Of a stretch of DNA of 40,000 nucleotides, positions 1 through 33,617 are shown piece by piece. The notes below the pieces were generated by a model. The model searched no databases, had not been told where the DNA came from, and saw only the letters and a list, made by a program, of their open reading frames with translations. The stretch comes from Neoscytalidium dimidiatum. Lineage: Eukaryota > Ascomycota > Dothideomycetes > Botryosphaeriales > Botryosphaeriaceae. The stretch lies in NCBI GenBank assembly GCA_037367355.1, contig JAVSCG010000038.1:1-40000 (forward strand). The letters are read 5' to 3'. A program made the translations under genes and the position numbers. The first letter of the stretch is position 1; each line of letters opens with the position of its first letter.

Positions 1-321
1 GGCCAATACAGTGGTAGGCAGGGGAGGTTCGTACAATAGTAGGGTAGGAATCAATTGACAAGTTGACCACGAGGGTCCTAACTACGATAAATGAGTGTGG
101 TCTATATACATGGAGTGATCGGTACGATCAGTAGTGATCTGTAATGTTAACCCACTGATCAGTACTGATCGGTGGTCCGAGCTTTGCTGAGCGAGTGTGC
201 GGTGGTCTGGTGCATCAGTGTCGGTAGGTATTCTGCCGAGTTAGGCCCCGAGTTGGTCACGTGGGCGGTGAGTAGTCGTAGGGTTTCGTTATCCGCCTTT
301 CTGGGCGACTGTGCCGTAACA
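1..321 (-). repeat. 3' LTR of Z, truncated by the window edge
   Basis: Position 1 matches 6147 in the right LTR, so about 64 bases lie outside the window. The LTR ends in gtaaca at 321, which is TGTTAC read on the element strand. The first 76 bases match the right LTR with a single difference. The remainder (U3 on the element strand) is largely unrelated to the right LTR. A tatataga TATA box for the element's own transcript is read on the minus strand near 101-109. Repeated tgatc(a/g)gta-like units lie at about 116-180. Confidence 0.9.
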
Positions 322-334
322 CTATCCCCCCTCT
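322..334 (-). other. Polypurine tract of Z
   Basis: Read on the element strand this is an A/G-rich tract with six consecutive G residues, touching the TGTTAC start of the 3' LTR. That is the position of the plus-strand primer in LTR elements. Element W has a very similar tract beside its 3' LTR (33955-33968). Confidence 0.8.
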
Positions 335-339
335 AGGCA

Positions 340-356
340 ACCTTCGGCCCGAAGGT
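340..356. promoter_or_regulatory. Perfect CGG-N-CCG palindrome upstream of the antisense gene
   Basis: The sequence accttcggcccgaaggt is an inverted repeat with 8-base arms and a one-base centre. Its core is CGG, one base, CCG (345-351). It lies directly upstream of the TATA box of the antisense gene. Zn(II)2Cys6 proteins typically bind paired CGG triplets, and the gene that follows encodes a Zn2Cys6-like cluster. An autoregulatory site is therefore plausible, but this is inference from position and motif only. Confidence 0.5.
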
Positions 357-360
357 CGAG

Positions 361-367
361 TATAAAG
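361..367 (+). promoter_or_regulatory. TATA box of the Z antisense gene
   Basis: TATAAAG begins 55 bases before the ATG at 416. A pyrimidine-rich stretch (about 376-395), typical of fungal transcription start regions, lies between them. The motif is inside the element but outside the LTR, so the gene appears to have its own promoter. Confidence 0.6.
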
Positions 368-415
368 GTAGTTGAGCTCCCTCCTTAGTTCCCTTGAGAT
401 TATTTCTCTGCCGTC

Positions 416-1044
416 ATGTCCAGTTCCGCTCGTCGACGCGCGCTTCTCGCCCGTATCCTTCGTAACGGTACTGACGCTCCCAGACGTTGTTCCTTTTGTG
501 GAGAGACCTCGTCTTCGTTGTCTTGTGTCGCCGGATTCCAAGAGGTGTTACGAGGTGTGCCAAGCGAGGCCACCTTTGTTCCTTTCCTTCTGACATGGCT
601 TCCCCTATTGGTTTCGTCGTGTGGATCAACAACGGGACCGGGTGCGGGCTCAGATTGAGCAGACCCAGCGCGAGATCGAAAGGGATGAGGCCGAGATTCA
701 GCGGTTGCAAGAGGAGGCTCAACGTTTGGTTCGTCGTACCGCCACTTCTCGGTCAAGGTGATCCGCCTGTTGCGGACACTTTCCTTCCTGGATTCCCGGT
801 CAGGAGTTGTTTGAGCGGGAGTTGGCGGCCATTGAGGCTGAGGAGGCGCAGGAGGCGCGGGCGGCTCAGGGTCCTTGTTATCTGGTTCAGGCGGTGGTGA
901 CGTGGCGGGTTCCGACGGGCTGGTTCCTCGAGAGGCACCGGTGGACCAGTTTCAGGTGTCCTTGACGCCTCCTCCGGGGTTGCGTCGTGGGAGGATGCTC
1001 TGGGTTTGGGCGGTCAGGGTTTCGTCGGTGGTATTCATGGATGA
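416..1044 (+). CDS. Antisense accessory gene of Z: Zn2Cys6-like cluster plus coiled coil, frameshifted
   Basis: This gene runs opposite to gag-pol, from an ATG at 416 to a TGA at 1042-1044 (about 209 codons). A short basic N-terminus (RRRALLARILRN) precedes six cysteine codons at 488, 497, 519, 546, 556 and 577. The spacing is CX2CX6CX8CX2CX6C, the binuclear-cluster pattern of GAL4-type DNA-binding domains. One-base insertions near 518 and 555 must be allowed for. Codons from 651 give a heptad-like helix (EIERDEAEIQRLQEEAQRL), then a second Glu/Ala-rich helix from about 801. The C-terminus (about 975-1041) is Gly-rich. A TGA at 759 and further frame changes interrupt it. The 3' end overlaps the end of pol tail to tail. 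From memory, repeated fungal hypothetical proteins share this Cys plus coiled-coil layout. The function is unknown; a DNA-binding regulator is inference. Confidence 0.72.
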
Positions 1045-1290
1045 GTTCCTCGCAGTTAAGGTAAGAGATTGGTTCCCATGAGGGTTCCCACGGTTCCCGG
1101 CGGAATCCGCTCCTTCCCATTTGATGAGGTACTTAAATTGACCGTCGATCCAGTCTCCATCAAGATTTTCTCTACGTCCCATTCTTTGTCGGCGTCATCG
1201 GGGTGTATTTCAAGTTCTGGGTCAGGTTCGGCGTTGCTGTGTGCGGGTTCAAGTAAAGAGATGTGGAAAACTGGGTGTATACCCACTTGT
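887..1290 (-). pseudogene. Z Pol C-terminus: integrase tail and chromodomain
   Basis: Read on the minus strand, the end of integrase (HPVFHISLLEPA, about 1245-1280) is followed by a chromodomain. It starts at EWDVEKIL (about 1160-1185), continues with YLIKWEG (about 1108-1130) and ends with CEELIHEYHRRNP (about 1000-1045). Three reading frames are needed to follow it, so at least two small indels are present. Chromodomains of chromoviruses bind methylated histone H3 and guide integration into heterochromatin. The element's location inside RIPed repeats fits that. The last part overlaps the antisense gene. Confidence 0.8.
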
Positions 1291-2300
1291 TAATCTGAGT
1301 TTAAAGGAAACAGGTGAATTTTTTCTCAATTTGGTAGGGTCCGATTTTCTTGTGGTCCAATTTGTCGTTCGATCGTGTTGTTTTGATGTTTTTTCTGAGG
1401 AGCCAGACTTTATCCCCCTCCTTCAGGGGCGGCGACGCCTGGCGCCGTCTGTCATGGTACATGGCCATTCGGTATGCGGTGAATTTGATGTCTCGGGCCA
1501 GTTCCTGGTGTAGTTCACGTAGCTGGTCTGCTCTGAGCATAGCTTTTTGGGCGAGTACTTCGCAGATCTGGGGTTCTCCGAAGGCAGTAGGGTCGAATCC
1601 GTAGTTGGCGTAGAAGGGCGTGGTTTGTGTGGCTTCCGTTGATGTGCTGTTGTACGCGTATTGGGCTAATGGTAGGAGTTCGACCCAGTTGTTTTGCCTG
1701 TAATTCAGGTAGAATCTTAGGTACTGTTCTAGCGTTTGGTTGGTTCGTTCCGTTTGTCCATCGGTTTGCGGGTGTGCCGTTGTTGACATCTTGTGTTTAG
1801 TTCCTAACTTGTGGACCAAGGTTTGCCAGAACTTAGCTCTGAATCGTGGGTCTCGGTCCGTGATTAGTTCCTTGGGCATCCCGTGGTGGGCGAAGACATA
1901 TCTGAGGAAGAGGTAGGCGCAGCCTTCTGCTCCGATTTTTTTGTTGCAAGGGATGAAGTTTGCCCATTTTGTCAAACGGTCGACAATGACCAGGATGGCG
2001 TTGTGTCGCGCTTTAGTCACAGGGTCTACTGAATTTGGCAGGTCGGTGATAAAATCCATTGTGACCGATTCCCAGGGTTTGGTTGGTGTTGTGATGAGCT
2101 GTAGTTGTCCGTATGGTGCATGTCGTGCCACCTTGTTTTTTGCGCATTCGTCACATTCCTGGATGACTTTCTCTACTACTTTCCTCATTCGGGGAAAGTA
2201 GAAGTGTCTTGCAAGCCGTTCCAAGGTTCTTGTCATTCCTGGGTGTCCGTGAACTGCGGACTCGTGGTATTCCTTTGTCAGCCGTTTGCGCAGAGGTGTG
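1291..2300 (-). pseudogene. Z integrase
   Basis: The longest open stretch of Z (1301-2236, 311 codons on the minus strand) is the integrase. The N-terminal HHCC zinc finger has its histidines in HESAVHGHPG (about 2240-2270, just before the first ATG) and its cysteines in CDEC (about 2140-2155). The catalytic core shows Asp in MDFITDLP (about 2040-2062), Asp in ITDRDPRF (about 1842-1865) and Glu in GQTERTNQTLEQ (about 1727-1762). GPYQIEKKF near 1310-1340 is the GPY/F motif. All catalytic residues are present. The frame is lost at about 1300, before the chromodomain. Confidence 0.92.
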
Positions 2301-2349
2301 GGTACGTAGATTTTTCCGCGGAATAGTATGTTGCCTCTATGGTCTTGGA

Positions 2350-3130
2350 CTAGGTCAGGGTCGTCATGTTCGGGGTGCCTATTCGTTGAAGCAGTTCTTG
2401 GGATAGCGGATCATTGTTATATTTTCCTTGGATGATTTGTTCCCAAGTGGCGGTGTCATCTTCTTCCTCGTTTACTGCCTCTTCCGTGGTTTCTTCAAGT
2501 GTTGGTATGGGTTCCTCGTCCTGCGGTTCCTCTTCGTCCTCCGGCTCCTGCTCTGGTGTTGGGTTTCGTGGAGGTTCGTCGTCGTCGATGGGGCTCCCTA
2601 GCCTTATGATGGGTGCCAGTATTCGTTCTTCCCAGGGTGCGTCGGATTCTTCAATGATTCGGGGGCGGTTGGGGCCTAACGTGCCGTCGTCATTTTGTCG
2701 TAGTACTGCTGGTGATAGTTCTGGCTTTCCTTCCACGTGGTCGGCTCTGCGGCTAAGTGCGTCGGCCTTGCCGTTTTCACTTCCCCGGTAGTGGATCTTG
2801 AAGTAGAAGGGGCGAGTTGTTCTGCCCATCGTACTTGTCTTCTGTTTAACACCTTGGTGGTTGTGAAGTATCCCAGGTTCTTGTGATCCGAGTATACCGT
2901 GATTTCGTAGTTAGCTCCCTCAAGGTAGTGTCGCCATTCCTTGAACGCTGTGACGATCGCAAGCAGTTCTTTGTCGTGTATCTCGTAATTGAGCTCGGCG
3001 GGTGACATTTTGCGAGAGTAATACGCGATAGGTGTAATCTTCCCTCGTCGTCTGGCTGGCTGAGGTAGCGCCAATGGCATAGTCGGATGCGTCAGTTTCG
3101 AGGTAGAGTGGCTTGTCAGGATCGAACATG
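2350..3130 (-). pseudogene. Z RNase H and acidic linker to integrase
   Basis: RNase H motifs appear in two overlapping frames. These are [13 protein letters not shown] with the first catalytic Asp (about 3085-3115), DKELLAIV with the Glu, and VYSDHKNL with the second Asp (about 2875-2900). The end of the domain, GKADALSRR, lies near 2745-2775 in a third frame. It is followed by a long linker very rich in Glu, Asp and Pro (about 2440-2620) ahead of the integrase. The domain degrades the RNA strand of the RNA:DNA hybrid. At least two frame changes interrupt it. Confidence 0.87.
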
Positions 3131-4400
3131 AGGAGTACCGGCGCTTCTACGAAGGCCCTTTGAGTTGATCAAACGCCTCTTGTTGGGGTGCTTCCCAGGT
3201 GAAAGGGTATTTTTCGGGTGAGTCGGATTAGGGTTCGGCTACATGCGAGTATCGTTTGATGAATCGTCGGTAGAAGTTGGCAAACCCTAAAAGGCTTGTA
3301 CTTCTTTGACGTTCCTTGGTTCTGGCCACTTCAGGATGTCTTCCACCTTTTTGGGTCCATGACTATTTTTCCTGGTTCGATGATAAAGCCTAGGAATTCT
3401 ACCCTTTGGGCATGGAAGGTACATTTTCTGGTTTGACGGAGAGGTTGTATTCGAGTAGTTTCTGGAGGACTTTGGATACATGTTCCTTGTGTTCTTCAAG
3501 GGTTTCTGAGTAGATCAGGATGTCGTCGAGGTAGGCTGTGCAGAATCGGTCCAGATATTCTCGTAGGACGTGGTTGACAAGGGCTTGGAATGTGGCAGGG
3601 GCGTTGGTAAGTCCGAAAGGCATTACCAAGTACTCGTACAAACCGTATCGAGTTCTGAATGCGGTTTTCCATTCATGTCCTTCCTTGATTCGGATAAGGT
3701 GGTACCCATCCCGCAGGTCTAACTTGGTGAAGAATCGTGCCCCGGAGAGGCGATCCCTTAGTTCATCGATGCGGGGTAGAGGTAGCGGTCTTTGATGGTA
3801 ATGTCGTTCAGGGATCGGTAATCCACACAGAGGCGTAACTTGCCTCCGGGCTTTGGTACGAAGAGGACGGGAATCCTGCTGAGGATTGAGAGGGTCGGAT
3901 GTATCCCTTCTTCAGTAGTAAGTCCAAGTGTTCCCTCATTGCTTGTAACTCCTTTTCCGACATTGGATATAGGGGTCCAAATCGGGGTTCAGTGCCTGGT
4001 TTCAAGTTGATCTCGTGGTCCCATGGTCTGTGTTCCGGTAGTGCGTCTTCGATCTTTTCTCTGAAAATTTCCTTGAACCGGTGGTATTCCTTAGGAACGC
4101 CATCAAGGTACTGTTCGTGTATCCTGGTGGGGTCATCTCCTCCCACGGGTGTCGGGTAGTCTGGTTTTTCTCGTCTGGTGGCACTAATCTGTCGGGTTCT
4201 TTCTTTGTTTGTAGTGGTGGGGCGATACCACATCATTCCAATTGCTTGCCCCTTCTTTCGGGTCCTTTCCAGCGCAGCTTTCAAATTAGGCTTACGTGGG
4301 TAATCGGTTCGGCTATGGTGCGTGGTTTCCATTCTGGTTCTTGGTTTCGTTCTCTGGACTTGAGGGTAATTCCTCCATTGTCCCAATCGTATTGTATTTT
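3131..4400 (-). pseudogene. Z reverse transcriptase
   Basis: RT motifs are read on the minus strand in order. They include a [10 protein letters not shown] stretch (about 3890-3925) followed by the [15 protein letters not shown] motif, LTNAPATFQ (about 3590-3620) and YLDD at 3522-3533, the catalytic box, which is intact. The thumb region continues to about 3400. Frames change between 3808 and 3640, near 3450 and near 3280, so several one-base indels have accumulated. RT copies the element RNA into DNA inside virus-like particles in the cytoplasm. Confidence 0.9.
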
Positions 4401-4720
4401 CCATTTCTTCTGCCAAGGGATGCCGAGAATGACATCATACTTGGGGATCTTGGTAACGTCTAGACAGATACGTTCCCTGGTTTTTGTATTCGAGGGTCAG
4501 TTTCGGGGTTTCGATGATTACCTTTCCATCTCCAAAGGAGCTGGGGGATCCATCAACAGTTCTCAGCTGATATGGTTGGTCCTTTTCTCTGGGTTTTAGG
4601 TTGGCTTTTTCTGCAAATCGGTTTGAGACGTAGTTCCCTTGTGATGCGGAGTCGATGAGGGTGAGAGCTCGGCGTCCATTGATTTTGTCACGACAACCCA
4701 GTGGTTCCCGTATTCTGCGG
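4401..4720 (-). pseudogene. Z aspartic protease
   Basis: Between Gag and RT the minus strand reads LTLIDSASQGNYVS (about 4630-4672). The DSA core matches the Asp-Ser/Thr-Gly/Ala active site of retroelement proteases. It is followed by KVIIETPKLTLEY (about 4490-4530), consistent with the second half of the fold. The family cleaves the Gag-Pol precursor. The region is not continuously open, and the join to RT needs frame changes. Confidence 0.65.
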
Positions 4721-4814
4721 AGTCTCCTTTGCTTTCTGGTGGGTGTCCTGTGGTTTTCCGGTCGATGCTGCTATGGTCCTGTGGGGCAGGGGCCTCGCCT
4801 GCTGTAGCCCCAGT

Positions 4815-6027
4815 TCAGTAGGCGTTTCTAGTTTTTTGGGTGGTACCCGCTGATGTTCTTAGCTTCCTGGTGAATGGGGCAGGCTTCGATGCTACAAGTG
4901 GACCAGTGGATGGTGTCATGGTTGGGGTCTCCGGTCGTCCTTCAGTAGCCGAGGTGGTTTTCTTGTCGTTGGTTCGCTGGTTGCTGGTTCGTTTGTCTGG
5001 GCAGTTTCTGCTGATATGTCCGTGCTTTCCACAGTGGAAGCAAAGACCCTTTTCACGCCGTCGCTGTTCTTCCTCCGGCGCCAGCCGAGGGTTTCGTCGT
5101 TGGTTGGCATCTAAGTCCATGGGGTCCCCCGGGGGTAGGTTGTTTCGAGGTTGCGCGGTGTTGGCCGAGTATCGGGTTTGGCCTGTCTCTTGTCTGAAAT
5201 TGAACAGTTGTTGGTCGACTCGGATGGCCGTGTCGATGGTCTCGCTAAGGTCCTTGGGTAATCCGGTGCGGGCGAATTCGGCCTTCACATTGTGCTTTAG
5301 GCCCTTGTAGAAGATGTATTTGAGGATTGGTCGTTCCAATTGAGGTAGGAGGCGAGCATGCGGAATTCCGTGACATATTCCGAGACTGATCGGGTTTGTC
5401 GGAGGTCCTGAATTCGAAGGGCGGCCTCCTGCTCCTCGTTCTTGCTACCAAAGGCTTGTCTGATTGCGTCGGCGAAGCGATTGTAGTTGGCGAACAGGCT
5501 ACTGGTTTCCGTACGTGGGATGGCCGAGCGGAAATCCTTTCGATAGGGTTCGAACCACCGTGCTGCGTTACCTCGGAGGTAGGTTCCTGCAAAGCGGACC
5601 CTTTCCTCATCGTCCTTGAATGATGCTTTGTAGAATTCGAAGTAATTCTCTAGTTGGGCCAGGAAGTCGTTGAGCTTACGCCGATCCCCATCGTAGGTGT
5701 CGGGGGTCTTGATCTTTAGTTTGGTGTTGTGGGGGGTCGATTCTGATGTCGCGGGGTGGCTGGGGTGGAGGGCCATAGTACGGTTGACAGTAAAGGCTTG
5801 TCCTCGAATGAAGTACTCCAGAAGGACTTGGCCGCAGTCCTCACTGGCGTTCTCTGGTACTCTGGGTCCGTTGATTGCTCGACTCAAGGAGGCTATGCCC
5901 GAGAATATGCTTCCGAAATGAGCAGCCTCATGTTAAGAGCTGGGTTTCCAGGGATCAAGGGACGGATTGACTGAAGCTGTTCCTCCTCCGTCGGAAGGTT
6001 GTTCCTGATTTCGGTCCAGGATGTCAT
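4815..6027 (-). pseudogene. Z Gag (capsid and CCHC nucleocapsid)
   Basis: I place the start at the ATG at 6027 (MTSWTEIRNNLP), upstream of the longest open piece. The frame shifts near 5895 and again near 5340. The capsid part has the Ty3-type signature LNDFLAQLENYFEFYK followed by RGNAARWFEPY (about 5525-5690). The nucleocapsid has a CCHC knuckle, CFHCGKHGHISRNC (about 5003-5046). The C-terminal tail is rich in Thr, Pro and Lys. Gag packages the RNA and forms the particle. Codon use and base composition are normal, without RIP stops. Confidence 0.88.
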
Positions 6028-6082: not shown

Positions 6083-6466
6083 TGTTACGCCGGGACTCTT
6101 TCTGGGGGAGTCGAGGCGCGTCGTCAGGCAGCTTGGGCTTTCTAGGGGCCAATACAGTGGTAGGCAGGGGAGGTTCGTACAATAGTAGGGTAGGAATCAA
6201 TTGACAAGTTGACCACGGGGGTCCTATCTACTGTGAACGAGTGTGCTCTATATACTGTAGGAGATGGTGGGTGTGACCGCTGGCCGTGACCGCGGTGGTT
6301 CTGGTGGTCAGGTTGAGTGGTCAGGCCTTGGCATTGTGACCGCGGTGTTGTTGCTGAGTCATCGGGGTGGCCACGGGCGTCTTGTATCTTGGCTGTGTTG
6401 TGTTGGTGGGTCCGATTTCCTCCAGCTCAGCACTTCCTCTCCTTCCCTTCTTGCTGCGCCGTAACA
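6083..6466 (-). repeat. 5' LTR of Z (384 bp)
   Basis: On the plus strand it runs from tgttacgcc to gccgtaaca, an inverted terminal repeat of the TG...CA type. A TATA motif for the minus-strand transcript lies at about 6246-6255. U3 contains two copies of the 12-mer gtgaccgcggtg (6286-6297 and 6336-6347), which the left LTR lacks. U5/R is almost identical to the left LTR, but U3 is not. Confidence 0.9.
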
Positions 6467-6973
6467 CTCGTTCTTAGTACCCGTCTATTATAATAGATAC
6501 TAGACAGCCGTAGGTTAACTATTAAGAGAAGGACCCGTCTCTAAGGGTTATACGGATTCTTTTTATAAGAGGGAAAGTACTAAGTTTATTTACGCGAGTA
6601 AAGAGTTTATTAACGAGGTTAGCTTAGCTACTATTATTAAGGAGAATATATATATTTATACTATTTATAGTTGTCTTAAGGATTATATAGGATTCTTTTT
6701 CTATACGGGAGCGGTTATCTACTATAAAGGAAGAAACTAATACTTTTAACCTCGAAATAGTAGGTAGGCTTCGCTTACCCGTAGCCTCTTCTACGGTATA
6801 TTCTAGAGAGCGACTTAGTCCTAGAACTAGAAGTTTTCTAAATCGCTAAGATAGCTAGAATTCTAAGAGTTAAAGAGTTTAGACTTAATATCGATACTAC
6901 TAAACTTAGCGGTCTTATTCTTTAGTAGATAGTAGAGGTTAGTAGTATAGTATTTAAAGCCGCGGTAGCGGTA
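6467..6973 (-). pseudogene. X2: RIPed gypsy fragment (Gag end and protease)
   Basis: The sequence is the reverse complement, with moderate divergence, of about 26400-26920 in element X. It covers the zinc-knuckle end of gag and the protease start. X homology begins immediately after the Z LTR, so Z inserted here. On the other side it stops at 6973, where the LINE A tail begins. CA and TG are almost absent and the frame is full of TAA and TAG. The rest of X2 is outside the window or lost. Confidence 0.8.
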
Positions 6974-18300: not shown

Positions 18301-18578
18301 TACCCTTTATAAACTTCTAATAATCTACTTCCTTTACTACGGCTACGGTAGTAGCGGCGAAGGCGGCCTCGTTAGAAGCCCTATTTAGAATAAAGCCTTA
18401 GTAGTCTTTTTTATAAGCGAGGCGGATAAAGATAGCGGTACTATAGAACTAGATATTAATATTTTACTTCGGAGGGTTAGGTAGCGGAAGGTAGTAGTCT
18501 ATAGCTCTTATCGTATATAGCTTACTATAGGCGAGGTATCCGTTCTTAAAATACTCCGCCGAGTTAAACGTTACTATT
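15309..18578 (-). pseudogene. X Pol: RT, RNase H, integrase (RIPed)
   Basis: This is the pol part of X downstream of the LINE B insertion, read on the minus strand. It begins FNSAEYFKNGYLAYSK (about 18520-18566), which continues the protease frame that stops at 27012. RT has LRIYVNYRALN-type residues near 17985, FQSYINSFVLDYLD near 17730, and YLNN at 17684-17695 in place of the catalytic YLDD (both Asp codons hit by TpG to TpA change). RNase H, an HHCC-like integrase finger (RRYKLYSK, about 16330) and an integrase core (VVTDRLTKRR, about 16170-16200) follow. It ends where Y inserted. Confidence 0.85.
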
Positions 18579-19176
18579 TATATTAGATATAACCTTCAAA
18601 TTTAACTCCGAGAAAAAGCGCTAAGACCAGTATCTATCGAAAGCTCTCGATTCTCTTAGCTAGATTCTCGAATCTTAACTTCGTAGCTATACGCGCTATT
18701 GCGCTATCGCGTAGAAAAGAGACCTTATTAGGCCGAATCGCCTTTCTTAACCTCCGCACCCCTACTAAGACCCTAAAACGACTCTAAAACGTACGAAATC
18801 TAAGCTACGGCTAGAAGATACCTACGCGCACCTCCGTACTAAGTTATACTAGATTTGGAGCGCGTTTACGCACCTAAATCTAAGGCGAAGAAGCGCTTTC
18901 TCCTCGTCTCCGTCCCGCCCCTTTTCCGCGGCCCGTATACGTAGAGTTTTTACTACCTCGCTACCTACGCGAACTAAGAATAACCGAAAATAAGTAAAAA
19001 GCTTAACCGAATAGCCTCGAAAGCGCTTCGTTACTTCTCGGAAGAAAGTAACGAAGAAAATTCCCCGCGCTCGCTCGGAATTCGTTTGTTTACGGCTTAG
19101 TTTAGACGAAACTAAAGCCGGCGATTTCTTTCTAGTCTAATTTCCTATTTTCTACTATTTCCTTTCTAGAAAGAGT

Positions 19177-20652
19177 ATAGAAAACTAAGGATATCCGCTC
19201 TTAGACCCTCCGGATTTCCTAGACCCTTTACGCCCCTCGACTCTAATTCGACTATCGACTACGCCGGTAGTTATCGAATCTTCGAATACTACGGGTTCTA
19301 GTAGTATCGAAGATATCGAGATAGAAAACGATAAAGTAACACCGCTATCGAGAAGGCCGAAGGTAACGGTAACGATAGAGCCTACGCCGACGCTAGAAAA
19401 AAGACTTTTCTTCTCGCCGATAACTACGGGTACTAACCCGTTCGAATTCCGCCCCGAGAAAAGAACCCGGTATATACCGGGATCGAAACTAAAGACCTCC
19501 GCGGAATATATCGAAGCCGCGTTCGACTGCCTTATTAAGGCGATCGACCTCGAAGACGACTAGTCTAAGGTAAATAATCTTAGCGAACTCCTTACCGTCT
19601 TCCGCGAATATACGGTAAAAGGGAAAATCAACTTTACTAAGTCGATTCTCGTAACCGAAGTCCGCGCTCTCGAGAACGTATTCCGTACGCTCTCGAATAA
19701 AACGAGGAATCTCGGAGCTACCTCTATAGTTCCTACGGGAAAACCCTAGCCGAGCTAGCTAGTCCTAGCTAAAAAACCTACCTCCTACGCCTCGGTAGCG
19801 GTAGATTTAGTTCTAAACGACGGTTTTATAACCGTATCGTATAAAAAACTAACTAAAAAAACAACTACGAAGCTCGTAAAACTAACGTCTATTAAAGATA
19901 GATAAATTACCGTCTCCTACGACGGCGTACGAGACTAATTTAACGGAATCCGACTTCGATAAAAGCTAAACCTCGCGTTCGCGGAAGCCGGTTTCGTAAA
20001 TAAACCCGTTATCTAAGGAACTTCTCTTTCGTTTAAGAGAAATATCCTAATTACGGGTACCGAAGGCTATACTAGCTAATTCCTCTTAGAAAAAGAGGAT
20101 ATTATTAGGAAAGTCCTTCCTAATTCTAACCCGAAACTAGTCGAGGCCTAGTATAAGGTTATTATCTACGGAATCCCTACGCGGGAGACTAAGGATATTC
20201 TAATCAATTCCTTTATTAAGGAAGAAATAGAGACCTTTAACGTAGGTCTTTCTCCTATCGGAAAGCCCTACTAGGCCACCTCTAAGGAGAAAAGAGAAAA
20301 CTAATCCGTAGGATCTATTATAGTCTCGTTTCGTACCGAAAAGAAATAGAAAAAGGCTATTAATAGCCGCCTTTTTATATACGGAATAAGCTATAAGGTA
20401 GAGAAAGTACGGACTATTCCTAAGGGGATTTAGTGCCGTAACTGCCTTAAAAACGGATACGAAACGGCTAAGTATACGAGGACACCTATATACGAAATCT
20501 ATAAAAAGGAATACCTTACGGGAGAGTATAAGTATAAATTTATAGGCTATAAAGCCTCTAAAGGTATACGGTACTAGTACTACCCTAATTCGAATTAACT
20601 AACCTTCTTTATCTATAGATAAATTAAGGGTATTTCAAGTAAATTTAAATAG
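19177..20652 (+). pseudogene. LINE 1 ORF1: nucleic-acid-binding Gag-like protein (RIPed)
   Basis: The frame starts at an ATA (RIPed ATG) followed by GAA AAC and runs 492 codons to a TAG at 20650. That is exactly the length of the frame in LINE 2. Internal stops are TAA/TAG only. The C-terminal part has tandem zinc-knuckle positions: CRNCLKNGYETAKY from 20434 and a second set about 15 codons later, with His/Cys changed to Tyr by RIP. ORF1 proteins of Tad/I-type LINEs bind the element RNA in ribonucleoprotein particles. ORF1 overlaps ORF2 by 29 bases in another frame. Confidence 0.85.
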
Positions 20653-23600
20653 AAACGCTCTAGCTACGGAGAGCCTTTTATCTAAAGTAATCGATCTTAA
20701 AATTAGCCTAATTCTTATATAAGAACCATAGCTAATAAACCCCGAAAATCCTAGAGAAAGGCGGTCGGTTAACTATCCCGCGTTCGTTTAAATTCTACCG
20801 GATTATTCTCTAACGGAAAGACCGCGTACGTTAGTATATATATTCTATTATCTAACGGAAATAGATATTAACTATAACTCCGCGGTAACTAAATCCCCTA
20901 ACCTAATAGTTCTAAAAATAATAGAGGAAAATAGTTAATTCTACCTCTTTAATTTATATAACCAAAAGGAATAAGGAAACGATAATTCCCTCTATACGCT
21001 AGAACGTATTCTAGGCTACTAATAGCTAGAATTCCCTAGTATTATAGCCGGGGACTTTAATATTTACTATCCGTAGTGGGACCTAAGGTCCCCCTACTCG
21101 AACGGGGCCTCCGCCCTAATTAATTAGATTGAATCTAATAACCTAGACCTACTAAATACGCCGGGAGAAGGTACCTTCTACCGGCCGAATCTAGATAGGC
21201 CTACGGTAATAGATCTAACGCTCTCTAGCCGAGGGCTAACGAATAAAATAACGGACTAGCAAATACTCGAATCTATCGAATCCGACTACTTCCTTATTTT
21301 ATTTTAAATCTAATTAAATAAACGAATAAACTAGGAAAAATCTAAGTAAATTAGATTTAATTACGAGAAGGCGAACTAGGATAAATTCTCTAAGATCTTT
21401 AAAAAAAAAGCCTCGAACTTTATAGAAAAGCTATACCCCTAGCTAGCTATTCTAGAAGAAGAGAATAAAGATCTTAGCCTAGAGATTCTAAAAGACCGTT
21501 CGAAAGAAGTCTTACTCTTAGAAAAACTAGGAGAATTCCTAACTAACCTTATACGGTAAGTAGCGGACTAAGCTATCCTAAAAACTACACCGCTAGCTAA
21601 AGCTAAACCCTAGTAGAATTCTATTCTAACGGAGGCTCGAGGGAACCTTAAACGATAAACGCGGCTTATACGACGCTCGCCGGAGCTCGTAAATAAGTAA
21701 GACTTTCTAAAAACCCGAAACGAATACTTCTCCTCTATTCGTAAAGCTAAACGGGACCACTAGAATTCGTTTCTAAGTAAAAATACCCCCGAAACTATCT
21801 TTAAAGTAATAGCCTATATAAAATACCGTCCGATAGAACGAATCCCTCCGATTCGGGCTAAAAATAGCCTACTATAAGATAGCTAGAAGGGGAAAAGCTC
21901 CGCGCTAAAAGAAACGTTATTTCTATCCCCTTCTAACGCACGAATCGAAAATAATTAGATAAATTACCAGTTAGATCCAAGCTAGGAATAGCTAATTCTA
22001 GATAAAAAAGAGCTCGAACGAACGTGTTCGAACCTAATAAAAGGAACTACGCCCGGACCTAATTTAATATCCTAATAAATTATTATTTAGGCCTATAACG
22101 CATTCCTAAAAGCCTTCTATTTTATCTATTCGAACCTCTTTAAATATGGCTACTATCTAAAGTGCTGGAGATAAGCAACGGGGGCAATTTTAAAAAAACC
22201 TAATAAGCCGGATCCCGCGAATCTAAAGACTTATAGGGTTATTTCTTTATTAAATTGCCTAGGAAAAGTACTCGAACGAGTAATAGCTAAACGCCTCGGT
22301 TTTCTAGCGGAAACGACAAACCTAATTCACCCTATATAAATAGGGGGAAGACTTAAAAAATCCGCTATAGACGCCTGCTTTATTCTAACGAATTTAGTAG
22401 AGGAAAACCGAAAGACAAAGCTAAAAATATCTACGCTATTTCTAGACGTACGCGGCGCTTATAACCACGTCGCGTAAGAATAACTTCTAGGAATTTTAAG
22501 AAAGTTAAAGCTTCCGACTAATCTACTCGCGTAGATTAGAACTTTCTTAAATTCCCGATAATTACGCCTTAGTTTCGACGGAAATATAGAAGAATTTAGT
22601 AACGTAGAAACGGGTATACCGTAAGGAAGTTCTATTTCGCCGATACTATTTCTAATATATATCCGAGACCTATTTTAGACGAACTCCGTTACCTACTTAT
22701 CTTACGTCGATAATATCTCTTTAATGAAAAGCTAGAAAAAGAATATTAAGATACTAGAAAGAGAAGCGGAAAGACTCTATAAACTAGGCGCGGAAAATAC
22801 TATATAATTCGACCTTAAAAAAACCGAATTAATATATTTCTCTAAAGAAAAAACGGTAAGAGATTCTACTTTAAAACTATCTACGGGTTTAGTTATAAAG
22901 CCTAGGAATCTAGTCCGATATCTAGGAGTTTTCTTAGACCTACTCTTTAATTTTAAGGAACACGTCGATATTAGAATAAGCTAAGCTCGTTCGAGCCTCT
23001 CGAGGATAAATAGACTAGCTAATATCGAAAACGGACTAAAACCTAACGCGGTACGGTAGTTATACTTAGCCTACGTTACCTCCGTCTCCGACTACGGCTC
23101 CGTTTTATACTAGAATAACCAAGCGAATTTTAAACAAAAAGCTACGATACTCTAGAATCTAGCTCTACGGAAAATACTAGGCGTTTTTAAAACCGCTCTA
23201 ATTACTCCCCTCAAAATAGAAGCCGCGATCCCACCCTCGGAAATTCGCTTAGAAAATAACCTCCGATTCTACGCCCTACGAAGTCTTAAATTAGACTGAA
23301 AACACCTAATTCGAAGCCTTCTAGAAAAAGAGAACGAATACGAAAGTAAGCTCGTTCGAAAAATTAGAGACTTTCTAAAGAATAAGCTATATAACCTCAA
23401 AACGGTTAATCCTTTCTACTTTCTACCCTAGGGGCTATCTACCTCCTACTCGGTTAAAGTCTCTAAACTCTTAAAAGAAGAATAAGCTAAGAAATATCTA
23501 AACGAACTTAAAAACCCTCTAGATAACCTAATTTCTATCTATACGGACGTAAGTTCGATTCCGAATAAAACTGGAATAGGACTAGCCGTTTTTATAGATA

Positions 23601-24441
23601 GAAACGATCCTATACTTAAAGACGAAACTACTATTTTAGTAGGAAATATCGGGAATAATAACCTAGTTTATAACGGCGAACTAGAGGCTCTTACGAGAGC
23701 CCTCAAACTCGCAGTTAAAAACGGATATACCGATAAAGATATTAGAGTCTACGCGGATAACTAGGCCGCGCTCTACCGTCTAAAAATACTATCTAGAAAT
23801 CTAGGATAACTAGCGTAAATACGAGCTTTAAACGCAGCTAAAACGCTTATTCTAAAAGGGAATTTAGTTTAATTAGAATAGGTCCCCGGCTATTTTAATA
23901 TCTGTATAACGAAGTAGATTTCCTAGCTAAATACGCCTATAAAATAAACCCGAATAACGAATCGACTAGCTACGTATTCTTTCGAATACTAACGCAAGTA
24001 GATTTTATTAATTCGTAGTAAAAAATAGCGAATAAGTAAGCGGAAATAGCCTCTAAAGAGTCTTATCTAAGGCGGTTTAACTAGAAAATAAAACGAAAGT
24101 TAATAGATCTCTCTACGAAGAGAGAAACTAGCTCTACGTTTTATTAACTTAAAATAGAATACGAATACTTTAAGTCCTATTTAAACCGCTTTAGATTAAA
24201 CTTCTCTAAGTATTACCCGTGTAATAATACGGCTAAATAAACCCCTCGGCACCTAATTCTAGACTGTAAAAAGTATCGACTCGAAAGAGAAGATATATAT
24301 ACTAGTCTAGAAACGAAAAATCCCTCCTTAGACCTCGTTTTTAATATCGAAGAAGAACGAAAAGCTCTTCTAAGCTTTTTATCGACAACTAAAATAGCTA
24401 CCCGAAAGTAGCTATTAGAACTTACTTTAACGGAAGTCTAA
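20624..24441 (+). pseudogene. LINE 1 ORF2: APE endonuclease, RT, RNase H (RIPed)
   Basis: The protein begins LRVFQVNLNRNALA, the usual start of the AP-endonuclease domain. GDFN is at 21050-21061, with DLLNTPGEGTFYRP near 21150. RT shows FLDVRGAYNHV (about 22439-22470) and YVDN at 22703-22714, where the second Asp of YVDD is lost to RIP. RNase H has IYTDVS (about 23537-23554), GELEAL and YADN. A CX2-3C...HLILDC C-terminal zinc motif lies at about 24216-24270. The frame is constant to about 23890. There, compared with LINE 2, a net 4-base deletion shifts it inside RNase H. RNase H in ORF2 fits the Tad clade. Confidence 0.87.
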
Positions 24442-24577
24442 ATACGTACTTTCGAAAAAACTAACTTTAGTCTCTCCTTAAAAAAGAAGTTATTCTCCCT
24501 TATTTTTCTTTTATCTTCTATCTCTTCTTATCTCTCTACTTACTTTTCTATTTCTTCCTAAAAAGTACCGGCTTAGC

Positions 24578-27012: not shown

Positions 27013-27296
27013 TTTATTTATTTATTTATTCGTTTAACGTCCTTATATAAGCTAAGCTTATAAAAGACGGCTAGTCTACTAATATATCTAGTCCGGTATT
27101 TCAACCGGGATTTTTATTCGGGTTTTTCTTCGGAAAGAAGTCTAGAAATAGTAGGGGCTAAGCCGGTGCTTTTTAGGAAGAAATAGGGAAGTAAGTAGAG
27201 AGATAAGAAGAGGTAGAAGATAAAAGAAAAATAAAATAAGAGAGAATAACTTCTTTTAAAAGAAGAGGCTAAAGTTAGTTTTTCGAAAGTACGTAT

Positions 27297-30200
27297 TTAG
27301 GCTTCCGTCGAAATAAGTTCTAATAGCCACTTTCGGGTAGCTATTTTAGTTGTCGATAGAAAGCTTAGAAGAGCCTTCCGTCCTTCTTCGGTATTAAAAA
27401 CGAGGTCTAAGGAGGGGTTTTTTGTTTCTAGACTAGTATATATATCTTCTCTTTCGAGTCGATACTTTTTACAGTCTAGAATTAGGTGCCGGGGGGTTTA
27501 TTTAGCCGTATTATTACACGGGCAGCTATTAGAGGGGTTTAATCTAAAGCGGTTTAGATAGGACTTAAAGTATCCGTATTCTATTTTAAGCTAGTAGAAC
27601 GCGGAGCTAGTTTCTCTCTCCGTAGAGAGGTCTATTAACTTTCGTTTTATCTTCCAGTTAAACCGCCTTAGATAAGACTCTTTAGAGGCTATTTCCGCTT
27701 GCTTATTCGCTGTTTTTTACTACGAATTAATAAAATCTACTTGCGTTAGCATTCGAAAGAATGCGTAGCTTATCGATTCGTTATTCGGGTTTATTTTATA
27801 GGCGTATTTAGTAAGGGAATCTGCTTCTTCGTTACCGCGTATATTAAAATGGCCGGGGACCTATTCTAATTAAACTAAATTCCCTTTTAGGATAAGCGTT
27901 TTAGCTGCGTTTAAAGCTCGTATTTACGCTAGTTATTCTAGATTTCCGAATATTGTTTTTAGACGGTAGAGCGCGGCCTAGTTATCCGCGTAGACTCTAA
28001 TATCTTTATCGGTATATTCGTTTTTAACTGCGAGTTCGAGGGCTCTCGTAAGAGCCTCTAGTTCGCCGTTATAAACTAGGTTATTATCCCCGATATTTCC
28101 TACTATAATAGTAGTTTCGTCTTTAAGGGTAGGGTCGTTTCTATCTATAAAAACTGCTAGTCCAATTCCGGTTTTATTCGGAATCGAACTCGCGTCCGTA
28201 TAGATAGTTATTAGGTTATCCGGAGGGTTTTTAAGTTCGTTTAGGTGTTTCTTAGCTTGTTCTTCTTTCGAGAGTTTAGAGACTTTAACCGAGTAGGAGG
28301 TAGATAGCCCCTAAGGTAGAAAGTAGAAAGGATTAATCGTTTCGAGGTTATACGGCTTATCTTTTAGAAAGTCTCTAATTTTTCGAACGAGCTTACTTTC
28401 GTATTCGTTCTCTCTTTCTAGAAGGCTTCGAATTAGGTATTTTCGGTCTAATTTAAGACTTCGTAGGGCGTAGAATCGGAGGTTGTTTTCTAAGCGAATT
28501 TCCGAGGGTAGGATCGCGGCTTCTATTTTGAGGGGAGTAATTAGAGCGGTTTTAAAAACGCCTAGTATTTTCCGTAGAGCTAGATTCTAGAGTATCGTAG
28601 CTTTTCGTTTAAAATTCGCTTGGTTATTCCAGTATAAGACAGAGCCGTAATCGGAGACGGAGGTAACGTAGGCTAAGTATAACTACCGTACCGCGTTAGA
28701 TTTTAGTCCGTTTTCGATATTAGCTAGTCTATTTATCCTCGAGAGGCTCGAACGAGCTTAGCTTATTCTAATATCGACGTGTTCCTTAAAATTAAAGAGT
28801 AGGTCTAAGAAAACTCCTAGATATCGGACTAGATTCCTAGGCTTTATAACTAAACCCGTAGATAGTTTTAAAGTAGAATCTCTTACCGTTTTTTCTTTAG
28901 AGAAATATATTAATTCGGTTTTTTTAAGGTCGAATTATATAGTATTTTCCGCGCCTAGTTTATAGAGTCTTTCCGCTTCTCTTTCTAGTATCTTAATATT
29001 CTTTTTCTAGCTTTTCGAGCTTGCTATTAAAGAGATATTATCGACGTAAGATAAGTAGGTAACGGAGTTCGTCTAAAATAGGTCTCGGATATATATTAGA
29101 AATAGTATCGGCGAAATAGGACTTCCTTACGGTATACCCGTTTCTACGTTACTAAATTCTTCTATATTTCTATCGAAACTAAGGCGTAATTGTCGGGAAT
29201 TTAAAAAAGTTCTAATCTATGTAAGTAGATTAGTTGGAAGCTTTAACTTTCTTAAAATTCCTAGGAGTTATTCTTACGCGACGTAGTCGTAAGCGCCGCG
29301 TACGTCTAGAAATAGCGTAGATGTTTTTAGCTTTGCCTTTCGGTTTTCCTCTACTAAATTCGTTAGAATAAAGTAGGCGTCTATAGCGGATTTTTTAAGT
29401 CTTCCCCCTATTTATATAGGGTAAATTAGATTTATCGTTTCTACTAGAAAACCGAGGCGTTTAGCTATTACTCGTTCGAGTACTTTTCCTAGGCAGTTTA
29501 ATAAAGAAATAACCCTATAAGTCTTAGAATTTACGGGATCCGGCTTATTAGGTTTCTTTAAAATTACCCCCGTAGCTTATCTCTAGCACTTTAGATAGTA
29601 GCTATATTTAAAGAGGTTTGAATAGACGAAATAAAAGGCTTTCGGGGATACGTTACAGGCCTAGATTATTATTTATTAGGATATTAAATCCGGCCCGGGC
29701 GTAGTCCCTTTTATTAGGTTCGAATAAGTTCGTTCGAGCTCTTTTTTATCTAGAATTAGCTATTCCCAGCTTAGATCCGGCTAGTAATTTATCTAGTAAT
29801 TTTCGATTCGTACGTTAGAAGGGGATAGAAATAACGTTTCTTTTAGCGCGGAGCTTTTCCCCTTCTAGCTATCTTATAGTAGGCCGTTTTTAGCTCGAAT
29901 CGGTAGAATTCGTTCTATCGGATAGTGTTTTATATAGGCTATTACTTTAAAGATAGTTTCGAGGATATTTTTACTTAGAAACGAATTCTAGTAGTCCCGT
30001 TTAGCTTTACGAATAGAGGAGAAGTATTCGTTTCGGGTTTTTAGAAAGTCTTACTTATTTACGAGCTCCGGCGAGCGTCGTATAAGCCGCGTTTATCGTT
30101 TAAGGTTCCCTCGGGCCTCCGTTAAGGTAGAATTCTACTAGGGTTTAGCTCTAGCTAGCGGGGTAGTTTTCGGAATAGCTTAGTCCGCTACTTACCGTAT

Positions 30201-31127
30201 AAGATTAGTTAGGGATTCTCTTAGTTTTTCTAAAAGTAAGACTTCTTTCGAACGGTCTTTTAGAATCTCTAGGCTAAGATCTTTATTCTCCTCTTCTAGA
30301 ATAGCTAGCTAGGGGCGTAGCTTTTCTATAAAGTTCGAGGTTTTTTCTTTAAAGATCTTAGAGAATTTATCCTAGTTCGCCTTCTCGTAATTAAATCTAA
30401 TTTACTTAGATTTCTCCTAGTTTATTCGTTTATTTAATTAGATTTAAAATAAAATAGGGAAGTAGTCGGATCTAATAGATTCGAGTATTTACTAGTCTAT
30501 TATTTTATTCGTTAGCCCTCGGCTAGAGAGCGTTAGATCTATTACCGTAGGCCTATCTAGGTTCGGCCGATAGAAGGTATCTTCTCCTAGCGTATTTAGT
30601 AGGTCTAGGTTATTAGATTCGATCTAATTAATTAGGGCGGAGGCCCCGTTCGAGTAGGGGGACCTTAGGTCCCACTACGGGTGGTGAATATTAAAGTCCC
30701 CGACTATAATACTAGGGAATTCTAGCTATTAGTAGCCTAGAATACGTTCTAGCGTATAGGGGGAATTATCGTTTCCTTATTCCTTTTAGTTATATAGATT
30801 AAAGAGGTAGAATTAGCTATTTTCCTCTATTATTTTTAGAACTATTAGGTTAGGGGATTTAGTTACCGCGGAGTTATAGTTAATATCTATTCCCGTTAGA
30901 TAACGGGATATATATACTAACGTACGCGGTCTTTCCGTTAGAGAATAATCCGGTAGAATTTAAACGAACGCGGGGTGGTTAACCGACCGCCTTTCTCTAG
31001 GATTTTCGGGGTTTATTAGCCATAGTTCTTATATAAGAATTAGGCTAATTTTAAGTTCGATTACTTTAGAAAGAAGGCTCTCTATAGCTAGAGCGTTTCT
31101 ATTTAAATTTACTTAAAATACCCTTAG
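27297..31127 (-). pseudogene. LINE 2 ORF2: APE endonuclease, RT, RNase H (RIPed)
   Basis: The frame is 1,277 codons with no net frameshift. GDFN is at 30690-30701, followed by NIHHP, intact here. The RT catalytic box reads YVDN (about 29036-29050), the same RIP loss of Asp as in LINE 1. RNase H is complete, with YTDAS near 28190 and HFNIRGNEEADSL near 27815-27855, where LINE 1 has its 4-base deletion. A CX2-3C...H...C C-terminal motif lies at about 27480-27520. Stops are TAA/TAG. The product would nick target DNA and prime reverse transcription there. Confidence 0.87.
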
Positions 31128-32574
31128 TTTATCTATAGATAAAGGGGGTTAGTTAATTTGAATTAGGGTAGTATTAGTACCGTATACCTTTAGAGGCTTT
31201 ATAGCCTATAAATTTATACTTATACTCTCCCGTAAGGTGCTCCTTTTTATAGATTTTATATATAGGAGTCCTTATATATTTAGCCGTTTCGTATCCGTTT
31301 TTAAGGTAGTTACGGTATTAAATTTCCTTAGGAATTACCCGTGCTTTCTCTACCTTATAGCTTATTCTATATATAAAAAGGCGGCTATTAATAGCCTTTT
31401 TCTATTCCTTTTTAGTGCGAAACGAGACTATAACGAATCCCGCGGATTAGCTTTCTCTTTTCTCCTTAGAGGTAGCCTAGTAGGGCTTTCCGATAGAAGA
31501 AAGACCTATATTAAAGGTCTCTATTTCCTCCTTAATAAAGGAGTCGATTAGAATATTCTTAGTTTCCCGCGTGGGAATATCGTAGATAATAACCTTATAC
31601 TAGGCCTCGACTAGTTTCGGATTAGAATTAGGAAGGACTTTCCTAATAATATTCTCTTTTTCTAAGAGAAATTAGCTAGTATAGCCTTCGGTACCCGTAA
31701 TTAGGATATTTCTCTTAAACGAAAGGGAAGTTCCTTAGATAACGAGTTTATTTACGAATTCGGCTCCCGCGAACGTAAGGTTTAGCTTTTACTAGAGTCG
31801 GATTCCGTTAAATTAGTCTCGTATACTATCGTAGAAGACGGTAATTTATCTATCTTTAATAGACGTTAGCTTTACGAGCTTCGTAGTTGTTTTTTCCGTG
31901 GGTTTTTTATGCGATACGGTTATAAAACCGTCGTTTAGAACTAAACCTACCGCTACCGAGGCGTAGAAGGTAGGTTTTTTTACTAGGACTAGCTGGCTAG
32001 GCTAGGGTTTTCCCGTAGTAGCTACGGAGGTAGCCCCGAGATTCCTTGTTTTATTCGAAAGCGTACGGGATACGTTTTCGAGTACGCGGACTTCGGTTAC
32101 GAGAATCGACTTAGTAAAGTCGATTTTCCCTTTCGCCGTATATTCGCGGAAGACGATAAGAAGTTCGCTAAGGTTATTTACCTTAAACCGGTCGTCTTTA
32201 AGGTCGATCGCCTTAATAAGGCAATCGAACGTAGCTTCGATATATTCCGCGGAGGACTTTAATTTCGATCCCGATATATACCGGGTTCTTTTCTCGGGGC
32301 GGTATTTAAACGGGTTAATACCCGTAGAGATAGACGAGAAGGAGAGTCTTTTTTCGAGAGTCGGCGTAGGCTCGACTATTACCGTTACCTTTAGTCTTCT
32401 CGGTAGCGGTATTATTTCGTCGTTTTCTATCTCGATATCTTCGATACTACTCGGTCTTGTAGTATTAGAAGATTTAATAACTACTAGCGTAGTCGATAGT
32501 CGAATTAGAGTCGAGGGGCGTAGAAGATCCGGGGAATCTGGAGGGTCTAGGGGCGGATATTCTTAGTTTTCTAT
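31099..32574 (-). pseudogene. LINE 2 ORF1: Gag-like protein (RIPed)
   Basis: It has the same 492-codon length as in LINE 1, from the RIPed ATG (ATA) at 32574 to TAG at 31099, overlapping ORF2 by 29 bases. Zinc-knuckle positions lie near 31200-31320. Equal length in both copies shows that decay has been by base transitions only. An open frame on the + strand inside it (31237-31551) is a shadow. Confidence 0.85.
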
Positions 32575-33167
32575 ACTCTTTCTATAGAAAAGAAATAGTA
32601 GAAGTAGAGAATTAGACTAGAAAGAAATCGCCGGCTTTAGTTTCGTCTAAACTAAGCCGTAAATAAACGAATTCCTAGTAAGCGCGGGGAATTTTCTTCG
32701 TTACTTTCTCTTAAAAAGTAACGAAGCGTTTTCGAGGCTATTTATTTAAGCTTCTCGCTTATTTTTAGTTATTCTTAGTTCGTATAGGTAGGGAGGTAGT
32801 AAAAACTCTACGTATACGGGCCGCGGAAAAGGGGCGGGATAGAGAAGAGAGAAAGGCGCTTCTTCGCCTTAGATTTAGGTACGTAAACGCGCTCTAAATC
32901 TAGTATAACTTAGTATAGAGGTACGCGTAGGTATCTTCTAGCCGTAGCTTAGATTTCGTACGTTTTAGAGTCGTTTTAGGGTCTTAGTAAGGGTACGGAG
33001 GTCGAGAGAGGCGATTTAGCCTAACGAGGTCTCTTTTCCACGCGATAGCGTAATAGCGCGTATAGCTATAAAGCTAAGATTCGAGAATCTAGCTAAGAAA
33101 ATCGAGAGCTTTTAATAGATACTAGTCTTAGCGCTTTTTCTTAAGGTCGATTTCGAAGGTATATTCT

Positions 33168-33617
33168 AAATTAATTTAGATAGATATAATTAACTATATA
33201 TATATATTTACGTATTAAGATCTCTACTTCTAATTTATAATTTCTATTATTATCGTATACGCCGTTAATAGTTATAGTCTATATAAATAATTTTAAACTT
33301 ATTCTCTACTACTATAATTTACTTATTAAAGGTCTTTTAGATCTTTATTTTAAGCTCTAATAGCTTTATCTTTATTAGCGTTTTAAACTACTTTTTATTT
33401 TAATCTTTATTAGCGCTCTTTAATAGTATACTAGCTAGCTACTATCTTTTAAGTATAAACGCTTATTAGAGTATATAAAGCGTCTTTAAAATCTTTTAAA
33501 GTCTTTATATTCTCTTAAAGCTACTAGTAAAGTCTTAAGACCTATAGTAGCGCTAATAGATTATCTTTATTATCTTTTAAAGTATATCTAGAGTAGATAT
33601 TTAAGCGATTTACTAAA
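33168..33617. other. Very AT-rich spacer between two LINE 5' ends
   Basis: About 450 bases separate the LINE 2 5' end from the LINE C 5' end, which face each other head to head. There is no coding pattern on either strand. Degenerate tctttattagcg units recur at about 33370-33420. It matches neither X nor X2, so it is not the expected flank of LINE A. It is probably older RIPed DNA. Confidence 0.5.

Follow-up and report, generated by a model that had tools for sequence, protein, structure and literature searches.

Does a fungal retrotransposon carry, on the strand opposite to gag-pol, a gene with which it regulates itself? The question is raised by the first 6.5 kb of the window, i.e., the whole 40,000-nucleotide stretch of Neoscytalidium dimidiatum DNA analysed here (contig JAVSCG010000038.1, positions 1 to 40,000; contig C38 of the 43.76-Mb genome G000), which are a long terminal repeat (LTR) retrotransposon on the − strand. 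An initial annotation, made from the letters of the window, had proposed that this element is a chromovirus with an antisense gene for a GAL4-type Zn2Cys6 protein. Herein we conclude, with moderate confidence, that the + strand gene (antisense open reading frame, aORF) encodes a predicted dimeric Zn2Cys6-like DNA-binding protein, which likely binds the palindrome TTCGG-C-CCGAA by its own TATA box and sets its own transcription and probably that of the element.

The aORF-homologous stretch in the window comprises 629 nt, from the ATG at 416 to 1044 on the + strand, and lies where the gene had been proposed, opposite gag-pol and between pol and the LTR ending at 321. The proposed frame is fully open in other copies, namely L005 (211 aa) and L007 (210 aa), and L004 reads 223 aa with a shifted tail. 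Window positions 324-1300 have at least 40 matches in the genome at 97-100% identity, the window included (the best 40 of 100 candidates scored). Compared with L005, the window copy has seven short indels and no substitutions, and 43 Z copies free of repeat-induced point mutation (RIP), out of at least that many near-identical ones in the genome, together have 238 indels and 8 substitutions over 27,348 nt; frame-changing indels are absent from L005 and L007 only. These 43 are distinct places, counted after removal of 17 duplicate rows and of two further copies, one of them truncated (on C10) and the other a second, damaged one on C14. The full RIPped copies, which are individually distinct and older, contain no internal indel in 12 of 14 cases (14 full rows from 30 loci cut out of 108 matches), and three Rpb2-type genes of the same assembly have open frames (1059, 1205 and 1322 aa). 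Since indels are thirty times commoner than substitutions, and given the open Rpb2-type genes and the indel-free RIPped copies, the frame breaks are probably uncorrected assembly errors in near-identical repeats. Decay was judged not to be their cause, as nearly all differences among un-RIPped copies are indels; the few substitutions (8) also ruled out dN/dS between these copies.

The genome also carries elements of a second type, D, with a different U3 and a different aORF from those of type Z. The gag-pol ends of Z and D are 96-98% alike (the comparison covered the two ends), and on the gag side, the flank shows 98% identity between Z-type elements and both the window and D elements. The D element L084 is 94.5% identical at the pol end to the window and 96% to L005, matches the window’s own 5′ LTR at 100%, and is 91% identical to the window across a 45-bp stretch including the LTR end, the polypurine tract and most of the palindrome; the window’s aORF body and Z-type U3 have no alignable DNA counterpart in it. 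Although the aORF bodies cannot be aligned as DNA, the Z and D proteins are alike in the cysteine cluster, the helix region and the tail. Among the LTRs listed, and judged by coordinates, 36 of 40 Z aORFs adjoin a Z-type LTR and none a D-type one (the remaining four lie beyond the LTR listing), and all 11 un-RIPped D aORFs adjoin a D-type LTR and none a Z-type one (the other 10 D matches, RIPped or fragmentary, were excluded). The aORF type and the U3 type thus travel together; they are neighbours, so their linkage may be passive. Mixed LTRs like those of the window element (D 5′ LTR, Z 3′ end) occur by coordinates at C4:138169-144618 and C11:6607-13043, and the reverse arrangement at C4:1877129-1883594; such elements are either recombinants or assembly chimeras. 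A third type, C, is represented by L078, and L079 is a RIPped D copy.

In L005, the pol frame extends beneath the aORF and covers it from codon 64 to the end (446 nt, 70% of the aORF), in a register in which aORF codon position 3 faces pol position 2; the six-cysteine cluster falls outside this overlap. The selection tests were built so that RIP cannot mimic them, with C>T and G>A changes excluded. When the second exon of D (L086) was compared with that of the RIPped C copy (L078), over 152 codons that follow the predicted intron described below, non-RIP changes numbered 28, 17 and 68 at aORF positions 1, 2 and 3, respectively (23, 15 and 49 for transversions alone). The 14 RIPped Z copies held 22 distinct non-RIP changes, of which 14 were synonymous in the aORF where random placement predicts 7.4 (p 0.002), the independent events being few and some shared between related copies. 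Inside the pol overlap, 10 of 17 changes were aORF-silent (p 0.014) and 4 of 17 pol-silent (5.3 expected), i.e., conservation of the aORF differs from that of pol and is not the third-position pattern that pol would force, which the initial annotation had named as an outcome that would refute it. Pol constraint does not explain the pattern, because it would suppress the aORF-position-3 changes observed; judged from these codon patterns, the aORF, and not pol, is the constrained frame.

All six cysteine codons claimed for the window are TGT at 488, 497, 519, 546, 556 and 577, spread over three frames. Open Z copies space them as CX2CX7CX8CX2CX6C and type D, in register with Z, as CX2CX7CX8CX2CX7C; the X6 first loop read in the initial annotation came from the frame breaks. 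Relatives keep the cysteines as well (all six in type D and in four B-type homologues), so that the other refuting outcome named in the initial annotation, copies lacking the six cysteines, did not occur; across seven aligned rows, the invariant cysteines number exactly six and no histidine is invariant. The predicted cluster (residues 21-60) gave a weak structure alignment to the Zn2Cys6 chains of Ppr1, Pho7, Leu3, Put3 and Gal4. The annotated coiled coil after the cluster survives in part: a long helix is predicted for residues 64-126 (predicted local distance difference test score, pLDDT, 93-97 at residues 71-100), but its heptad-like periodicity is modest (p 0.017).

Several results weigh against a Zn2Cys6 assignment. 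The published motif, CysX2CysX6CysX5-16CysX2CysX6-8Cys (PMC2447501, available part of the text), is missed by both Z and D, in which all loops fit but the first, X7 instead of X6. Pfam Zn_clus (PF00172) had no match among the aORF pieces at E up to 1 or 10, where the E-10 scan is limited by HMMER filters, which discard the majority of matches weaker than about 0.1. Profile searching against PDB sequences returned weak ZZ and Mdm2 / RING-like matches alone, and the base-contact lysines are mostly missing, being absent in Z and B. Among other profiles, a zf-PHD-like one matched the Z piece at 0.008 without reaching its cut-off, and DUF3716 reached E 0.15 against the D piece, with no match in the genome search nor in its control search; Foldseek with the Z model returned a single, unrelated match (E 7.2). 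Of the GAL4-type pattern first proposed, the six-cysteine cluster and the long predicted helix stand, and the canonical spacing does not.

Between the LTR end and the ATG lie both a TATAAA box and a 17-bp palindrome. The palindromes of Z (ACCTTCGGCCCGAAGGT) and D (AGCTTTCGGCCCGAAAGCT) are both perfect, with their two arm differences answered in the opposite arm. The palindrome core with TATA occurs 71 times in the genome (reversed control pattern: 0), and 71 of 71 stand at aORF starts, the palindrome without TATA being outside the search; most of these sites are copies of one family, and the independent evidence is the comparison of Z with D/C. The half-site of Ppr1 is TTCGG with a 6-bp spacer (TTCGG-N6-CCGAA), and a candidate site, CGG-C-CCG, is present in the palindrome. 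Paired CGG triplets are the typical target of Zn2Cys6 proteins, which bind them as homodimers via the coil that follows the cluster (PMC5559640, available part). A TCGG-N4-CCGA motif seen by eye in the Z U3 was not used, as RIPped Z copies do not keep it.

We propose that the antisense mRNA would start at the TATA box, and that the protein would dimerise through its predicted helix, enter the nucleus and bind the palindrome as a homodimer, with TTCGGCCCGAA as the candidate target. The palindrome centre is 13 bp from the TATA box, where binding would most simply repress the gene’s own promoter, a negative autoregulation that would set the protein level. The sense LTR promoter may also be controlled, as suggested by analogy with HBZ of human T-cell leukaemia virus type 1 (HTLV-1) and by the fact that aORF type and U3 type go together. 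An extension that we regard as unlikely is a phage-like immunity cassette, in which an antisense zinc-cluster repressor and the U3 promoter under its control would be swapped jointly between elements sharing gag-pol (here types Z and D); each type would repress only its own kind, and a new recombinant would escape and burst.

An intron of 46-48 nt on the antisense strand is predicted in types C and D. In all three un-RIPped D copies read, which carry a frame break in exon 1, GTAAGT...TTGAC...CTAG (48 nt) stands directly after the cluster, and its removal gives MASPLDAEFRRLDRARE, resembling MASPIEFRRVDQQRDR of Z and MPSPAEFRRVDQARDR of B. In type C (L078), a 46-nt stretch occupies the corresponding position; it would account for the frame change of this copy, and its donor is RIP-changed to ATAAGT. 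The four RIPped D rows did not match the intron search pattern; in L079 the same stretch was found by eye, with RIP-type changes at the junction. P0005, a protein from another assembly, looks as if it starts inside the corresponding intron. Such an intron can persist through retrotransposition because the genomic RNA keeps it.

Searches of 5.8 billion sequences, one of which scored the best 7995 candidates by shared words, found eight homologous proteins (best E 4.6e-45), all small (102-243 aa, fragments included). The four of B type share 43-59% identity with L005 and retain the six cysteines at the spacing of L005; one of these four, P0006, is a hypothetical protein of Thermoascus aurantiacus. 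The cluster region is absent from P0004, P0005 and P0008. A C-terminal PPPGFASWEDALGLG tail is common to types Z, C and D and to P0004 and P0005. A protein search restricted to the cluster returned the four known B-type proteins alone among 25 candidates and did not show a wider fungal spread, and no relatives were confirmed in viral contigs, where 14 stretches matched a pattern. Types Z, B, C and D are mutually diverged, which argues against a recent capture.

The main alternative to an autoregulator is that the aORF does encode a protein, whose cysteine domain would however form a different zinc module, ZZ- or treble-clef-like, for RNA or protein, e.g., for packaging or importing the element’s nucleic acid. 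We consider this possible, though rather unlikely. The X7 first loop, the lack of a Zn_clus match, the weak ZZ and Mdm2 chains in the PDB profile search, the zf-PHD-like score below cut-off and the base-contact lysines missing in Z and B all favour it, whereas ZZ and RING sites require eight ligands for two zincs and the aligned rows offer exactly six invariant cysteines with no invariant histidine. The Zn2Cys6 chains found by structure alignment and the CGG/CCG half-sites at the gene’s own promoter likewise speak for a Zn2Cys6-like cluster. A ZZ or RING reading was judged weak on the matches of the PDB search.

That the antisense transcript works as RNA, pairing with genomic RNA and feeding or disturbing small-RNA silencing while the protein is minor, is distinctly improbable: antisense RNA roles are discussed for retrotransposons (PMC7264820, available part) and 446 nt of aORF and pol overlap, yet the coding pattern tracks amino acids, and Z and D keep similar proteins where their DNA cannot be aligned. 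It is very unlikely that the protein is a transcription factor captured from the host and has host genes as its main targets, since every palindrome with TATA stands at an aORF start (the genome search leaving out palindromes without TATA) and the homologues are small and in part fragments, although Zn2Cys6 factors are host regulators and gene capture is possible. Finally, a frame that overlaps pol over 70% of its length and is broken in the window could be no gene at all, open by chance or by pol constraint on the other strand. This we hold to be extremely improbable, and it was rejected from the codon-position and synonymous-change tests: aORF-silent changes exceed expectation and pol-silent ones do not, the cluster lies outside pol, homologues exist in other assemblies and the predicted intron is on the aORF strand.

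The initial annotation considered a retrotransposon with its own antisense DNA-binding regulator unusual; the case has more precedent than it supposed, as antisense ORFs are known at the same place in plants and in Boty. The Boty gene, brtn, is reportedly the antisense gene of Boty-like retrotransposons of Botrytis cinerea, said to be described in Zhao et al. 2011 (Virology 417:248). As far as citing papers describe it, the host is likewise a fungal LTR retrotransposon with gag-pol, a chromodomain and an extra gene antisense to gag-pol; these descriptions, through which brtn is known here, mention neither a zinc cluster nor a palindrome, an intron or types linked to U3. An overlap of brtn with pol is likely, because one Monilinia transcript has matches to truncated Pol as well as to BRTN (PMC5987419, available part). 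No homologue found here is named as BRTN or as from Botrytis, most protein matches bearing no name.

The available parts of two plant reviews (PMC7264820, PMC11963269) report antisense ORFs located between pol and the 3′ LTR and call the function of antisense accessory genes of LTR retrotransposons unknown. The plant aORF-3R genes (Grande gene23, RIRE2, and Retand with TRP28) resemble the present aORF in place, strand and presence in most copies, as well as in predicted DNA binding (TRP28), a suggested regulatory role and an own promoter upstream of gene23; they differ in the TRP28 protein, in belonging to flowering plants, in a much longer pol-LTR region and, for Retand, in a non-chromovirus host. 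HBZ is, in the available part of PMC10186651, also a 3′-end antisense gene with a transcription-factor-type protein and a spliced antisense RNA, and it reduces sense LTR transcription; it differs in having a basic leucine zipper (bZIP) instead of a zinc cluster, a promoter inside the 3′ LTR and a retroviral host, and by analogy the likeness is one of design, not descent. With Ppr1, Gal4 and Put3, the aORF protein shares the six cysteines, the helix after the cluster, the predicted fold of residues 21-60 and a CGG/CCG palindrome (here at the aORF promoter), and it differs in the X7 first loop, the missing Zn_clus match, the mostly missing base-contact lysines, the lack of a large regulatory domain and the 1-bp palindrome spacer.

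Among the literature matches listed (titles and abstract openings), none reported an LTR retrotransposon carrying a Zn2Cys6 gene, and none of those listed ascribed a zinc cluster, an operator, an intron or types linked to U3 to an antisense LTR-element gene; the original brtn paper may contain some of this. The aORF described here combines a DNA-binding-like design, a candidate operator, a strand-marking predicted intron and two natural types on one backbone, which makes its function testable. If our reading is true, a fungal retrotransposon governs its own expression through a protein with the architecture of a fungal host transcription factor, as an independent counterpart of HTLV-1 HBZ.

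Features of the window element and of its antisense gene (window positions)
Feature	Position	Strand	Remark
Antisense gene (aORF, type Z)	416..1044	+	Frame-broken in window copy; fully open in L005 and L007
Six-cysteine Zn2Cys6-like cluster	488..579	+	CX2CX7CX8CX2CX6C in open copies
Long predicted helix of aORF protein	604..886	+	Approximate ends; overlaps pol tail on other strand
17-bp palindrome ACCTTCGGCCCGAAGGT, candidate operator	340..356	.	TTCGG-C-CCGAA core
TATAAA box of antisense gene	361..366	+	About 50 bp before ATG
3′ LTR, Z-type U3	1..321	-	Cut by window (contig) edge
Polypurine tract adjoining 3′ LTR	322..337	-	CCTAGAGGGGGGATAG on - strand; by position and composition alone
Pol C-terminal tail overlapping aORF	604..1044	-	Approximate in window; 446 nt in L005
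Pol chromodomain	1022..1183	-	Approximate, transferred from L005
Gag-pol pieces, frame-broken	1301..5887	-	Ty3-like capsid, CCHC knuckle, RNase H, integrase
5′ LTR, D type	6083..6468	-	U3 unlike 3′ LTR

The host element is a chromovirus (Ty3 type), as had been annotated: a Pfam scan of the L005 pol frame gave the order rve (28.8 bits, cut-off 32.6), SH3_Tf2-1 and Chromo (PF00385, 9.7e-9), with the chromodomain at the pol C-terminus after integrase. No reverse transcriptase domain was matched in the broken window pieces scanned; gag, RNase H and integrase pieces and the LTRs are present. The element at 1-6000 is young, since its RIP index is 0.93-1.05 against saturating RIP at window positions 8001-40000 ((CA+TG)/(AC+GT) 0.01-0.15, TA/AT 1.7-2.3). 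Dozens of near-identical un-RIPped copies (43 Z, 11 D) exist despite the genome’s extreme RIP, and they represent a recent burst not reached by RIP, perhaps owing to the loss of the sexual cycle. Several small contigs of the genome are exactly 20,000, 40,000, 60,000 or 80,000 bases long, probably a product of genome storage. Most of the window beyond the first 6.5 kb is heavily RIP-mutated and includes a large inverted repeat (18578-24459 and 27279-33174), whose arms of several kb are 88-96% complementary.
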